NCBI RefSeq assembly: GCF_021134715.1
Contig: NC_060018.1
Span: forward strand, 1,302,001-1,366,000
Length of the DNA stretch: 64,000 nucleotides
Direction of reading: 5' to 3'
DNA from: Daphnia pulex
Taxonomy: Eukaryota > Arthropoda > Branchiopoda > Diplostraca > Daphniidae
Part shown: piece after piece, positions 37,301 to 47,438 of the stretch
How positions within the stretch are numbered: the first letter of the stretch is position 1
Layout of the letters: the number at the start of each line of letters is the position of its first letter
Translations under genes and position numbers: made by a program
Notes under the pieces: model-generated
The model's input: the letters and a program-made list of their open reading frames with translations, nothing else
The model's database searches: none
Told to the model about the DNA's origin: nothing

Positions 37301-39468
37301 CTTCTTTGTACCGCCCGATGATGCCTCACATGGGTCTACCTGGTTTAAATCCATCGCCGTATCCGCCGCATTCCGTTGGATATGGTGTGAATTCAGTACC
37401 GTCCTCCGCCATGAGTGTCAGTTCTGCGATGGGTCAGCCGCAGTCGGGTGGCGGAATTCTCAGCAATCTTGGAGGAATGTCCCTACCACCTGCACCGTCC
37501 AGCTTGTCGCTTCCGCCTAAGGTATGTCATCACGCAGTTCACGTTGTTTGGTTGTATTATCATGCCTGTATTTCCCAATTACGCCACAGAAACCTGGCAA
37601 GTGGAATGCCATGCACGTCCGAATAGCATGGGAGATCCACCAGAATCAACAACGGCAGCCCCGGGATATGCAATTGGATCCGAAAAAGATGATGAGTTTG
37701 GCGCCTAAATTGAACTTAGGAATATCTACAGGTCCACCTCCAGGCCCATCATCTCATCCCCCTCAACTTCCTCCTCACCCGCCCCATCAGACTCATGCAA
37801 AGTCGACAGGCGGTTTTGATACCTTGCCCAGCGCGCTCAATTCGCACAATTCGCCATTTGGTTATACCCATCACAACATGGCCGGCTTTCTTCCCCGTAT
37901 TCCTTCCGTCCCTACACCTCCTCCTTCTCACCATTCAATGCAGCCACCTGGTGGAGTGAGACACAGTCCGGCACCCGATCAATGGACTAGGTAATAGGAT
38001 CCTGGAAAAAAAAAGTATTGGAGAAATTTGAGGTGTTTTGACATACTTTTTCTTTGATTTTATTAGAATGCCACATTCTTCATCCTCGTCCTCGATGACG
38101 GCCCCTTGGCTGGCCCCGTTGATGAGCGCCGGATCGATGTCATCGATGAAATCCGAGCAGTCCCCGACGACGTCTCATCATAGCGCTGCTGCTGCAATGT
38201 CCAACCATCATCAGATGGCCAAAGAGAGAGAGAGACAGAAGAAGGAAGAACGAGAGCGTGAGCGTGAAAGAGAACGTGAAAGGGAGCGGGAACGAGAACT
38301 GGAACGGGAGCGGGAACGAGAGCGCGAAAGAGAAAGAGAACGTGAAAGAGAGAGGGAACGGGAGCGAGAAAAGGAAAGACAAAAGGAGAGAGAAAGGAGT
38401 GAAAGACAAGAGCGTGAAAAGAAAAGAGAGGAGGAAAAGGAACGAGAAAGGAGGAGACACGCCTCACGATCCCCTCTACATCCACATTCGCGGACGTCGG
38501 CCAACGGTGGATCTTCGAAATCGGATCAGTCCAACAAATCTAACGCCTCGCAGTCCATGTCCAGCAATCTTCCGCCGTTATCATTCCATCCGGGGATGCA
38601 AATGCCCGCCAACATGTTGGACAGATCCCGTATGGGGATGCACACGCCGTTACACGCGTACAGCCACGGTTCCTTCGATCCTTTCAGAGACGTCCTGCGT
38701 GGGATGGATCCGATGCGGGAGAGTATGGATCGCGAATCGTTTTTGAGAAACTACGGTGCGGCAGCCAATCATCTGGCATTAGGTGGACCGGGACTGCACG
38801 GATACGGGACACCTCCTTCTTCTTATGGATTGCCTGGACTTCCTCCCGACCGATACAGAGACGGGTTATCGTTGCCTCCTCACCTCGGCCACCCATCTAT
38901 GGCTGGATCCTATTCCTTGGCAGGTCAACAAGGTGGACCGTATGGGCAGCAAAATGATCGCTTTGGATCCCTTCCAGGGATGAGTGGAGCCCCGACTCTC
39001 TATCCGCCCACTTCAACGTCGTATCCGTTTCCGCCTCTAGGCCCTGGTGGACTTTTAGGAGCCGGATTGGGAAGTGGCATGAGCTCCTTGTCAATGTTGC
39101 CTCAATCGCTGTTGACTTCTGGTGGTAAACGGACTCCACCGCCATCGGGACAACCACCGACATCACTCCCGGGTTCGTCGGCGCTGGCTTCGCTTGGGCG
39201 GACTCACATGGGTCTCATGCCGGCCGGCCTAGGGTTGTCACCATATCCAATGCCGTCACCATCTCCTCACATGATGAATCCGCATCACTTGCTCCCTCCG
39301 CACCACGGGTCTTCTATGGGAGGCGCCCGACCGCCCTCCAATAGTACGCCTCCATCCGGTGTGGGTCGTCCTTTAATGGATTTGACGTCGCCGCATCCTT
39401 CCTCCGGCTTAGCGCCCTTTAATCCGATGGATCCGTATCCTCGCAAAGACGACCCCCAATCGCGGTAG
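34400..39468 (+). CDS. tay: AUTS2/FBRSL1 family chromatin regulator (Drosophila tay homologue)
   Basis: Vertebrate AUTS2 joins a noncanonical PRC1 complex and turns it into an activator by recruiting p300; Drosophila tay affects brain structure and locomotion. Nine exons: 34400-34498, 34633-34929, 35003-35332, 35400-35699, 35772-36831, 36910-37052, 37123-37521, 37590-37990, 38067-39468, giving 1,476 aa. Family landmarks appear in order: a basic N-terminus, DVIDGFAIISFSTYEDLE (about 115-132), GYLCDSESEELE (240-251), a long Pro/Ser-rich region, YSDMLRRELDSRFLNS (about 762), KPGKWNAMHVRIAWEI (877, the most diagnostic AUTS2 block), an Arg/Glu repeat region (about 1063-1140), and the DPFRDVLRGMDPMRESMDR block (about 1215). 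Intron 6 is 78 nt, stop-free and in frame, so retention would be tolerated. The start of exon 7 could also be 37105. The 3' UTR probably ends near ATTAAA at 40168-40173. Start codon choice is reasonable, but upstream exons cannot be excluded. Confidence 0.9.
38220..38460 (+). repeat. Arg/Glu codon repeat inside the AUTS2-like gene
   Basis: A purine-rich imprecise hexamer repeat of Arg and Glu codons encodes a charged stretch of about 80 residues, predicted to form a single long helix. Long antisense open frames over it are shadows caused by the lack of stop codons in the complement. Confidence 0.85.
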
Positions 39469-40875: not shown

Positions 40876-42527
40876 ATGTCTGAGTCGGGGACCACTTCTG
40901 GAGATCAATGCTCAAGGATGAATGTAAGAGGCTCAAGAGCGACCAGCCGAAATGCCTCATTACAGAGTAGCAGAGAAGATTTGTCAAATAATTCTGTCCT
41001 GTCCTCAGGACTGAAACAAACAGATTGCAGTGCAAGTAGCAAGGCAGAAGATTCTCCAGTTGACAAAGGAGAAAATAGCAGTACTGTGATAGAATGTGCT
41101 GTATGCCTCCAAACATGCATTCATCCAGTGAAGCTGCCTTGTTCACATATCTTCTGCTATCTTTGCGTGAAAGGCGTGGCTTTCCAGTCGAAAAGATGCG
41201 CCATGTGTCGACAAGAAATTCCCAGCGATTTCCTTATTCACCCACAATTACTTGACCGGACTCAGCTGGAAAAAGAATCCACTTTAGAAGATGGATACCA
41301 ATGGTTTTATGAAGGGAGAAACGGTAATTAATCTTTTTCTCTATCAACATATTTTTGAGTGGTCCAGCTTTTAGACTGTGTAGATTTTGACATTTCATTC
41401 CTTACGGATCTTTAAGGCTGGTGGCAGTACGACGACCGCACCGCTGTTGATCTCGAGCAGAATTACAAACGTGGGGAAAGAACGTTTGAAATGGTCATTG
41501 CAGGAGCCAGTTATGTTATCGATTTTCAGCAACTTATTCAATTTCCTAAACATAGAGCGGGAAGAATACGCAAAATAAAAAGAAGTGCTGCATCTTTTCC
41601 CATACTCGGTGTTGCAGGAATTCGTTTGTGAAATCTTTCAAATAACAATAAAATTAAGAACAAACAAACAAAATAATAATGAAAATAATAAAGAAATGTG
41701 AATATACATGTAATTTCGTACTCGATCAAAATTCTCTTTATGTAAGCACAAAACGTTAACTAAATACAACATTTTGTATGGCTTTCAAACAAAACGAGCA
41801 CATTTTGAATGCTTCATTTGTTTGTTTTTTTGTTTTCTTCGTTTTAGGTTGGTGGGCGTATGACGAACGAACCAGTTTCGAGATGGAATGTGCCTATAAG
41901 CGTTCTCAGCGTATTTGCGAGTTGCTGATTGCTGGATTTCTTTACACGATCGATTTCGATCAGATGTTTCAATCCAGGAAGACGGAGCCTTCGCGACGTC
42001 GACGCATTAAACGCGATCTTGCCTCAATACCAAAGAAAGGAGTTGCTGGGTTGCGGCTGGAACAGAGTGACGAAACTGAAAATGGTCAAGCTGCTTCTTT
42101 AGATCTTCTTTCAGTGGCTGCCAGCAGAGCAGCTCTCACTTCCAACTGTTTATCTCCTAGCCAAACACCCCAAGCTCCTTCCAACACTCCTCAAACACCT
42201 CAGACCCCTCAAACGCCGCGTAGTCCTCCGTCTCCAGCTCCGGAAACGATTTCTAATCAAGACTCTGTAGCTCAAACATTGCCCAGTGAATCTCGTTGGC
42301 AGGAGCGGGAAAGACGTCGTCTCCGACGAGCTGTTGAAGAAATCGAACGTCTAAGACTCCATGACGGAGATAGGTTCACTCCACCGCTCTCCAGATTAGA
42401 TAACATGGTCATCTATTATAATATGGATGAAGAAACTAGCGTTATACACGACGATACTCACGACGACTTGTGGCCAAGTGAAGACAGCTCTTCTGATGAC
42501 GAAGAAGGAGAGGTGATCATTAGTTAG
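40876..42527 (+). CDS. RNF146: PAR-dependent E3 ubiquitin ligase RNF146/Iduna, two alternative terminal exons
   Basis: RNF146 binds iso-ADP-ribose units of poly(ADP-ribose) through its WWE domain, which activates its RING. It then ubiquitinates PARylated proteins such as Axin. The common exon 40876-41323 encodes the RING (CAVC at 74-77, then [10 protein letters not shown], then CAMC) and the start of the WWE domain (YQWFYEGRN, ending at residue 149 in phase 1). Two exons can complete it in the same phase: 41417-41631 (isoform A, 220 aa, stops directly after the WWE) and 41848-42527 (isoform B, 375 aa, with an acidic Ser/Pro-rich tail). Isoform B keeps all PAR-contact residues known from human RNF146. 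Isoform A keeps most but has Leu in place of Lys175. The B form matches the family's usual architecture and is probably the main product. Confidence 0.93.
41417..41631 (+). CDS. Upstream alternative WWE exon (exon A) with own stop
   Basis: After an AAG acceptor at 41416 the frame reads [15 protein letters not shown] through GVAGIRL and ends with TGA at 41629-41631. It aligns without gaps to the WWE of human RNF146. Equivalents of Trp114, Tyr144, Gln153 and Arg163 are present. The position of Lys175 is Leu, and the Phe-Leu before Tyr144 is Ala-Ser. Two AATAAA signals follow within 65 nt, so the exon can end a transcript. The intact frame, with amino-acid-level conservation, argues against a dead copy. 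Confidence 0.82.
41647..41692 (+). terminator. Two poly(A) signals after WWE exon A
   Basis: AATAAA at 41647-41652 and 41687-41692, between exon A and exon B. They support exon A as a true terminal exon rather than an internal one. Confidence 0.6.
41848..42527 (+). CDS. Downstream WWE exon (exon B) and C-terminal tail
   Basis: After a strong pyrimidine tract and TTTTAG the frame reads [17 protein letters not shown] and continues through [11 protein letters not shown], nearly identical to the human block. It then runs into a tail of about 155 residues with a Thr/Pro/Gln repeat ([12 protein letters not shown]), an Arg/Glu-rich helix and an acidic end (SSSDDEEGE). An AATAAA lies at 42764-42769. 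Confidence 0.92.
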
Positions 42528-43270
42528 TATCGTAAATCTGTCTTACTCTTTTCAGAATTACCTTGAAATTGTAATTGAATCAAGAAGATCTTTCTGCCTT
42601 ATTCATTCTTGGGTCATGGCGACCGAGAAAATGTAATCCCCTCAACCTCCAACTCGTGTGTTGTATTTTAGATTGGATTTTGATTAGATTAGAGAGTGAA
42701 AACTCTTGATTCTCTATTTGATTTCCATTCGCAAATATATTGTAGAGTGGACTACATTTTTGAAATAAATTTTTTGCCTCATAACTTTAATAAGTCATGT
42801 TTTATATTAAGTTTATCCCTTCAGCCTTTTATAATGAATGGGATTTGTAGCGAGACGAAATTTCATTGTGATATTTTATCATTTGATAAAACCATCAGAG
42901 AAAAAATGTCCGCAGGCGCAGTCACGAAGTAAAAAGTAATAGCGTGTACTCAAGTCGGATCTTGGTCGGATACCTATCCAAAATATCTTCCCTTTTTTTT
43001 AAATGGTAAAATAGGTTCGAATGCCACGAACGGTCGAACGCGAATTTTTAATTTTTTAATTTCCTGTCGTTTTTTGTTGTAGAGATATTTGGCAACAAAG
43101 AACTTCTCTAAAGCATGGCTGAAGAGCAGACGATTTATGAAAACGTGTTCGTTTCAAGTTGTCAAAGTTTCAAGAATTAATTCTTGTGTTGACATTTACC
43201 GAGTTCGCTCTTTACATTCTTACTAAATCAAGAAATTGTTTTTATAGGTAGCTGTTATAATATTATAATC
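42528..43270. other. RNF146 3' UTR and KLHDC4 upstream region
   Basis: Contains the RNF146 poly(A) signal at 42764-42769 and the presumed KLHDC4 promoter. AT-rich, with no additional coding frame recognised. Confidence 0.5.
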
Positions 43271-45482
<2,212 letters not shown>

Positions 45483-45788: not shown

Positions 45789-47438
45789 CTACTTTTGCCT
45801 CATATTTGGTGTAATTTCTGGTGGAAAGTATGCGTCTTCTTCGGCCTGCCGCAGCAATTTAGAACTGATCTTTTTACCTCGTCCCTCTTGTTGTTTAATA
45901 AGCATTTCCTTTTGCAACATTTTTTCCTCGTGTCGCAACTCCCACTCATCCAAGTTATCGAAGAAGTGAAGCTGCTCTTCTTTCTCTTGCAATTCCTTTT
46001 TCTTAGCTTCCAGAATGGCCAGCCGTTTTCGGTGTTCAATAGCTTGGGTTTGTCTTTCGATTTCTTGTTCTCTCTGCTGTTCCCAGAGTTGGTATTGTTC
46101 TTTTTGACGTTGAATATCCTCGTTTTCATGCTTGCTGACAGCGTCCTTGATTCGCTGTTTCAAAATATCGTTCACATTACCAGGAACGACAAAACCTTCA
46201 GTTTCCAGTTGATTCACTCGGTTATTGAAGTTTTCCAAAAAAATTTCGGGTAAGTTTGTGGATTCCTGCACTGTCTTTTTGCATAGCTCTAGCTCTTCCT
46301 TTAATAGTTGCGGCTTAGAGGATGATCCCAGTATCGTATCTAAAGTCTGGATAATCTTGTCATGTTTCTCAAACAAAGTCCATCCCAATAGAATGGAAGT
46401 ATAAGCCACAGAATCAGGCGACTGACGAAGGAAGTGTTTTCCGAATCCAACGAGAGTCTTGCCAATAAGATGGCGAGGTTGGGTAAGATCAAAATGATCG
46501 TCAAAGAATGGCTCACGAATGTAGTCAACTCGAACTTTGACATCTTCAACAGGTTCCACAGGTTTGGGTTTAGGTTGTGGATCCCAAGGGTCTGGCTGTG
46601 GATTGTTGAGATAGCAATAACATGAATACAATGCCAGATGACTAGTAATTGGATGGTCAAACTCTTCTTGAAGCATCAGCTGAATTGCAACCTTGGCAGC
46701 ATCTGAAATAGTGTGAAAAAATTGATTAATGGTAATATATCTAAGCAAAATAATACTAAGAAAAATACCGCGGAAGTTTCCCTGCTTGAGAAACGAATCC
46801 ATCAACAAATTACTCAAATAGTAATCTAGAAACAGTCCATAGTTGAGACGATCATCAACCATTCTCATCAAAGAGTCAGTATGCTTGAATTCCAAGTATG
46901 TTCTGATAACTGAATGACCAGTAGAGGGAAGGGCATGGATAGTGTTTGGGCATCTTCGAAATTTCTGAGTAATAGCTTCCAAATCATCTAGATGCAGCTC
47001 ATTCAAGACGAAAGTAGAGAACTGAATAAAAGATGATATCCATTACTTGAACAATACAACAATTTCTGAAAGTTTTACACACCAAATCAACATCAATCGC
47101 ACTGGCTTTGCTTTCCTTCTGGAATTTTTTCATTAACTCTCCATAAAAATTTTCTATAAAAAAAAATATTAGATAAAAGGTTTTAACAGAAAAATTATAT
47201 AAACTTTTACCATTTTTTAGTTTTTCAAGTAATGGATTATTCAATCTTCCCTTCCATTCGGCATCACATTGGTAAGCATCCGATAGAAATGTTCGGAGAC
47301 CTGAATGAGACAATGAGTAACGAAACAATTCATTTTGAGATTCATAGTAACAGTAATTATGATTTTACATATTCTTTGAAGGTTCTGAAAGCGATATCCC
47401 AGCAAATTACACTTTAAAAGTAATCCTTTTCCAGCCAT
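45789..47438 (-). CDS. MRPS27: Mitochondrial small ribosomal subunit protein mS27
   Basis: A pentatricopeptide-type helical protein of the mitochondrial 28S subunit. Exons: 47438-47369, 47300-47211, 47153-47083, 47021-46769, 46702-45789, giving 465 aa; human has about 414. Matches to the family include LSDAYQCDAEWKGR near the N-terminus, the block NYGLFLDYYLSNLLMDSFLK, and AIQLMLQEEF. The C-terminal third is Gln/Glu/Lys-rich and predicted to be coiled coil. The N-terminal residues (MAGKGLLLKCNLLGYR) fit a mitochondrial presequence. The fourth intron (46768-46703, 66 nt) is a multiple of three and free of stops, so a retained form would insert 22 residues. A minus-strand AATAAA lies at 45710-45705. 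The gene is divergent from mL54. Confidence 0.92.

Follow-up and report, generated by a model that had tools for sequence, protein, structure and literature searches.

RNF146 (Iduna) is a ubiquitin ligase through which poly-ADP-ribosylation leads to the destruction of proteins, with roles in Wnt signalling and DNA repair (reviewed in PMC11852910). Its WWE domain holds the AMP side of the ligand through Tyr107, Tyr144, Gln153 and Arg163, whose roles are set out in PMC8853533, and the distal-phosphate contacts of iso-ADP-ribose are Arg110, Trp114 and Lys175 according to PMC11269756; the same source reports that the WWE domains of HUWE1 and TRIP12 prefer ADP-ribose over iso-ADP-ribose and have Trp in place of Tyr107. 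The C-terminal domain of the human protein is credited with five putative tankyrase-binding motifs in PMC11852910; in PMC9688111 their number and place vary among RNF146 orthologs and direct tankyrase binding in Drosophila is given as not investigated.

A second kind of system concerns the end of the gene. In human CAPZB and in Drosophila pip, PGRP-LC and CG42235, alternative 3'-terminal exons that are homologous to one another and have multiple poly(A) sites are described (PMC3228551, PMC9013439).

In the 64,000 nucleotides of Daphnia pulex DNA analysed here (the window, C2:1302001-1366000), the last exon of RNF146 is, as judged by sequence comparison, partly duplicated, an event of long ago that has left both copies intact. 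The upstream copy, exon A, is probably an alternative 3'-terminal exon yielding a tail-less RING-WWE isoform beside the 375-aa form, the use of exon A being inferred from the sequence.

Gene Structure and Predicted Splice Products

The coding part of the gene comprises the following elements, all on the forward strand:

40876..41323 (+), coding part of RNF146 exon 1, 448 nt: N-terminus, RING finger and first WWE strand with the equivalents of Tyr107 and Arg110 (from the frame, Pfam, 4qpl alignment and genome search)
41324..41416 (+), intron of 93 nt leading from exon 1 to exon A, GT-AG with the weak acceptor TTTAAG
41417..41631 (+), exon A, 215 nt, with 70 codons behind the split Gly: rest of the WWE and C-terminal loop, then TGA
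41632..41847 (+), spacer of 216 nt separating exon A from exon B, GC 0.24, with a long T tract at the B acceptor (41847)
41848..42527 (+), exon B: rest of the WWE and 155-aa tail, then stop, the canonical RNF146 form

Scripted splicing of the window sequence gives 220 aa for exon 1 with A and 375 aa for exon 1 with B. In both products a Gly codon spans the junction, its first base supplied by exon 1, and TGG TGG follows; the GC content of exon A (0.44) exceeds that of its flanks (0.31 and 0.24). Pfam places the RING at residues 73-115 and the WWE at 141-205, identical residues in both products, with WWE scores of 63.0 bits for the A product and 63.2 bits for the B product (cut-off 21.1). The best solved-structure match of each is 4qpl (RNF146 RING-WWE), without gaps: residues 68-220 of the A product align to chain residues 2-154 (153 residues, 202 bits) and residues 68-221 of the B product to 2-155 (154 residues, 220 bits). 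Both therefore contain a C3HC4 RING followed by a single WWE at the fixed RNF146 spacing, and by gene and sequence both are RNF146. The A product ends in GVAGIRL; because this end lies one residue before that of the 155-residue 4qpl chain, the short form should fold and would carry the PAR-responsive RING-WWE core.

The earlier note, made from the letters alone, had described a duplicated WWE-completing exon with acceptors in the same phase and intact frames, two copies that align gap-free to the human WWE, a stop right after the domain in the upstream copy, and a short RING-WWE product if that copy is used. Splicing, structure alignment and Pfam bore out all of this, the two lengths to the residue.

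Genomic Context and Copy Number

Searches of the 133.2-Mb assembly (13 contigs), in which only the best candidates were scored, returned 16 matches of the exon 1 protein at E <=0.01, itself at E 7.6e-98; the other 15 are weak (best E 1.8e-5, 38% identity) and are presumably other RING genes. Exon A found only itself and exon B at E <=1, the latter at E 1.9e-16. RNF146 thus appears to be single-copy in this assembly. A WWE profile search of the genome gave six matches, namely A, B, a TRIP12-like gene, a HUWE1-like gene and a neighbouring pair of partial matches on C10, representing one split domain or two. No relatives of exon A were found in IMG/VR and none of exon 1 in GTDB contigs, collections that are not aimed at animals and hence uninformative on them.

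Upstream, at 38032-39468 (+), an open frame of 478 aa carries long repeats of Arg-Glu as well as stretches rich in Pro; its stop precedes the start codon of RNF146 by about 1.4 kb, and Pfam has no match in it at E 0.001. It is taken to be the last exon of an Atrophin/RERE-type gene. The gene behind RNF146, at 43271-44300 (+), shows Kelch-type repeats (FGGEYF...) and a Lys-rich start and is presumably KLHDC4-like, and a 417-aa frame at 45789-47042 (-) encodes mitochondrial ribosomal protein S27 (Pfam MRP-S27, E 4.4e-68), intron-free in the matched part. Elsewhere in the assembly, the best matches to the PARP catalytic domain are split pieces at C8:8498252-8499091 and C9:270793-271582, with weaker ones on C10 and C3. 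C13 carries a full-length COX1 match (439.5 bits) in a 523-aa open frame read in the invertebrate mitochondrial code, and short COX1-like pieces occur off this mitochondrial contig at C11:6254056-6254226, C4:8522513-8522671 and 8537517-8537675, and C3:12924026-12924100; only the C11 piece exceeds the family cut-off, and these pieces are possibly nuclear copies of mitochondrial DNA.

Age of the Duplication and Constraint on Exon A

Over the 70 aligned residues, A and B are identical at 36, A and human at 33, and B and human at 42. The two exons differ at 32, 21 and 49 of 70 first, second and third codon positions (second versus third, chi-square p 5e-6), the third positions being close to saturation; 24 of the 36 identical residues are encoded by different codons, and the base differs at 10 of the 14 fourfold sites common to both exons. 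NG86 gives dN 0.51 and no finite dS, which is presumably saturated. The dN/dS of exon A, named in the earlier note as a check, therefore favours constraint, as far as a contrast of two exons within one genome can show it.

The same differences bear on the alternative that exon A is a chance open frame resembling a WWE or a recent duplicate of the assembly. A recent or assembly copy is excluded by the 49 of 70 differing third positions, and a chance frame is ruled out by the A-B match (E 1.9e-16) and the Pfam WWE score of 63 bits for the A product; nothing was found in favour of either, and the probability of this alternative is negligible. Outside the exons, the region behind A resembles the B tail or 3' region no better than shuffles do (200/200 reach the score), nor do the two upstream introns resemble each other (106/200), a nucleotide comparison that is weak here, as even the A versus B exon score is reached by 3/200 shuffles. 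A tree with the WWE domains of the genome's own TRIP12-like and HUWE1-like genes as outgroups accepts each of the three possible groupings of A, B and human (p-AU 0.67, 0.27 and 0.43) and is compatible with an exon pair that could be as old as the arthropod-vertebrate split.

Neutral evolution was simulated over seven distances, 3000 runs for each, and B took the place of the ancestral exon. At half the lower-bound third-position distance (1.11/2, about 0.55), a neutral A is expected to keep 15 human matches versus the 33 seen. None of the simulations at >=0.4 substitutions per site kept 33, a number reached by 0.13% of them at 0.3 and by 71% at 0.1, where 28% also retained an open frame. Only short neutral periods therefore fit exon A, which on this comparison was under protein-level constraint for most of its history.

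A short neutral period is what is proposed if exon A, long functional, has recently lost its use, the frame being still open by recency and the splice site decaying. B agrees with human against A at 16 sites and A agrees with human against B at 7 (two-sided p 0.09), the branch of A is twice that of B (0.63 versus 0.31), and an intact frame has a probability of about 0.22 after 0.05 substitutions per site of pure neutrality under an assumed indel rate; from these results a recent relaxation of A is possible, and A may evolve faster than B, with a recent loss of use as one possible outcome. The weak acceptor of A and the change of residues common to B and human, including Lys174-Lys175, point the same way. 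However, 70 codons stand without stop or indel, an in-phase AG is kept at the exactly homologous place, Tyr144, Gln153, Arg163 and the GVAG-RL end are retained, and the simulations leave room only for a short neutral phase; such a relic is rather improbable, and a terminal exon still in use is preferred.

Splice Sites and Transcript Ends

Splice sites were scored with approximate consensus matrices, and percentiles refer to the 64-kb window. The exon 1 donor at 41324 (ACG/GTAATT, the slash marking the junction) reaches 2.88 bits (top 2.3% of GT). The B acceptor, GTTTTAG/GT, is strong, with 8.82 bits (top 0.3% of AG), and the A acceptor, TTTAAG/GC, an AAG behind a broken pyrimidine tract, scores 0.84 bits (top 9.4% of AG); between 41340 and 41900 three AG besides that of B outscore it. 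The A acceptor sits at exactly the place homologous to that of B, AG making up 5.6% of the dinucleotides of the window. Weak acceptors are common in regulated exons. Unusual folding was not detected in either intron relative to shuffles (z -1.02 and 0.32; 31/200 and 124/200 shuffles fold as well); an inverted repeat of 27 nt joins 41659-41685 to 41804-41830, 74% complementary, AT-rich and repetitive.

Behind the stop codons, the following signals are of interest:

41647..41652 (+), AATAAA, putative first poly(A) signal for a transcript ending in exon A (sequence match)
41687..41692 (+), AATAAA, putative second poly(A) signal for a transcript ending in exon A (sequence match)
41742..41747 (+), donor-like TAT/GTAAGC after the A stop (2.22 bits, within the top 3.0% of GT), which would join A to B
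42764..42769 (+), AATAAA, putative poly(A) signal for the transcript ending in exon B (sequence match)

The two AATAAA that the earlier note had seen behind the A stop are thus present, at 41647 and 41687; as evidence of polyadenylation they are marginal. Among AT-rich stretches of the window, 6 of 153 with a length of 75 nt and 9 of 64 with a length of 216 nt contain at least two AATAAA, a frequency that makes the pair suggestive only. A further AATAAA lies at 41574, within the coding part of exon A, and the hexamer is over-represented in the window on both strands (154 versus 89 expected from dinucleotide shuffles).

The donor-like sites open two other routes for exon A. A second one, CAT/GTAATT at 41710, scores 1.84 bits (top 3.8% of GT), and from either this site or that at 41742 exon A could be spliced on to B, which would place its stop upstream of a junction and lead to nonsense-mediated decay, A then setting the level of RNF146 and giving no protein. 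The closeness of both scores to the 2.88 bits of the exon 1 donor and the pairing of a strong B with a weak A acceptor agree with such a poison cassette, which nonetheless has no need for 70 codons kept as a WWE with its pocket residues and GVAGIRL end, and it is judged unlikely. The other route includes both A and B in one translated transcript, with a second half-WWE in tandem, by means of an in-phase G/GTGTTG at 41609, within A and before its stop; this site, however, scores -3.13 bits (top 30% of GT), and exon B would stand without the first WWE strand, so that this arrangement is highly improbable.

In the preferred reading, A as a terminal exon, use of the weak A acceptor together with cleavage at the AATAAA sites behind A would give the 220-aa RING-WWE ligase without tail, and skipping of that acceptor would lead to exon B and the 375-aa form. 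The short form would be without whatever partners the tail binds.

The ADP-Ribose Pocket and the C-Terminal Tail

With residue numbering anchored on the published RNF146 contacts, the alignment shows the AMP-side residues Tyr107 (from exon 1), Tyr144, Gln153 and Arg163 in both products. All three distal-phosphate contacts are present in the B product and two in the A product, where Arg110 (from exon 1) and Trp114 are kept and Lys175 is Leu. Exon A has Ile-Leu for Lys174-Lys175, Ala-Ser for Phe142-Leu143, Pro for Arg155 and Ile for Arg162. The Leu at 175, the Ala-Ser for Phe-Leu and the retention of Trp114, Tyr144, Gln153 and Arg163 had been read from the letters before, and the anchored alignment agrees in each residue, B having the human residue at all of these positions.

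Because the contacts to the adenine and the first phosphate are kept in A and Lys175 is not, a weaker preference for iso-ADP-ribose is predicted: the C-terminal loop that grips the distal phosphate would be deprived of this residue, and the A product is expected to bind iso-ADP-ribose less tightly and to discriminate less between it and ADP-ribose. The change is predicted to be a partial shift away from iso-ADP-ribose, nucleotide binding not being lost; iso-ADP-ribose reading by the A product is accordingly not assured by its being RNF146 by gene and sequence.

The stop after the WWE removes the 155-aa tail, as had been proposed; the role of this tail is less clear than the proposal implied. 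In the B tail no match was found to the tankyrase-binding consensus Rxx[AGPV]xG or Rxxx[AGPV]xG, and one Rx5G candidate occurs at residue 317. The sole Rxx[AGPV]xG match, RMNVRG at residues 14-19, is encoded in exon 1 and hence common to both products, and 39% of 2000 shuffled proteins contain a match of the two broad kinds.

A wider role can be put forward only tentatively: RNF146 may here be a ligase with two readers, in which the choice of last exon gives either a tail-bearing reader of iso-ADP-ribose or a form without the tail that is adapted to mono-ADP-ribose or to ADP-ribose ends, or that competes with the long form, and PAR-triggered ubiquitination would be uncoupled from the partners of the tail. 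In tardigrades, the RNA of RNF146 rises strongly after ionising radiation (PMC11233135), which by analogy suggests DNA damage as a condition possibly relevant to the use of exon A. If the isoform is real, its RING-WWE core with one distal-phosphate contact changed is a natural test of the role of the tail and would show how far Lys175 sets the preference for iso-ADP-ribose; a regulated choice of exon would amount to a switch acting on PAR-dependent degradation, of a kind not found described in the literature searched.

Comparison with Known Systems

No RNF146 with a duplicated alternative last exon was found among the listed papers of the open literature, as searched by title and in part by start of abstract, and within this scope the claim that the arrangement is undescribed in RNF146 holds; the short isoform may already stand in a database as a prediction. 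Homologous alternative terminal exons are a known kind, of which the instance in RNF146 was not found described.

Like the described alternative 3'-terminal exons, the locus has two homologous last exons that can follow one and the same upstream part and that end separately, and A and B are indeed tandem homologous exons with the same acceptor phase, each ending in a stop. The difference from the cited systems is that here the putative choice would swap the PAR-reading domain and drop a 155-aa tail. Competing RNA structures are reported for PGRP-LC, whereas the RNF146 introns fold no better than shuffles. Strict mutually exclusive exons form an internal cluster with shared coding exons behind it (PMC3228551); A and B are not of this type, as both end in a stop and no coding exon follows either.

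Among the proteins, both products are like RNF146/Iduna (4qpl, 3v3l, 1ujr/2rsf, 2d8t) in having a RING and a WWE at the same spacing and Tyr107, Tyr144, Gln153 and Arg163; the locus is unlike it in its second WWE-completing exon with a stop after the domain, which brings Ile-Leu for Lys174-Lys175 and no tail. WWE2 of ZAP/PARP13 likewise keeps the deep AMP sub-pocket and not the shallow phosphoribose one (PMC8853533); ZAP is described there without a C-terminal extension, whereas A has the extension with Ile-Leu for Lys-Lys. With the WWE domains of HUWE1 and TRIP12, as PMC11269756 presents them, A has in common the conserved adenine and proximal-phosphate contacts and would resemble them in missing a contact of the Lys175 type. 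Unlike them, the A product keeps Tyr107 and Arg110 from exon 1, and for this reason it may lie between the RNF146 type and the HUWE1/TRIP12 type.
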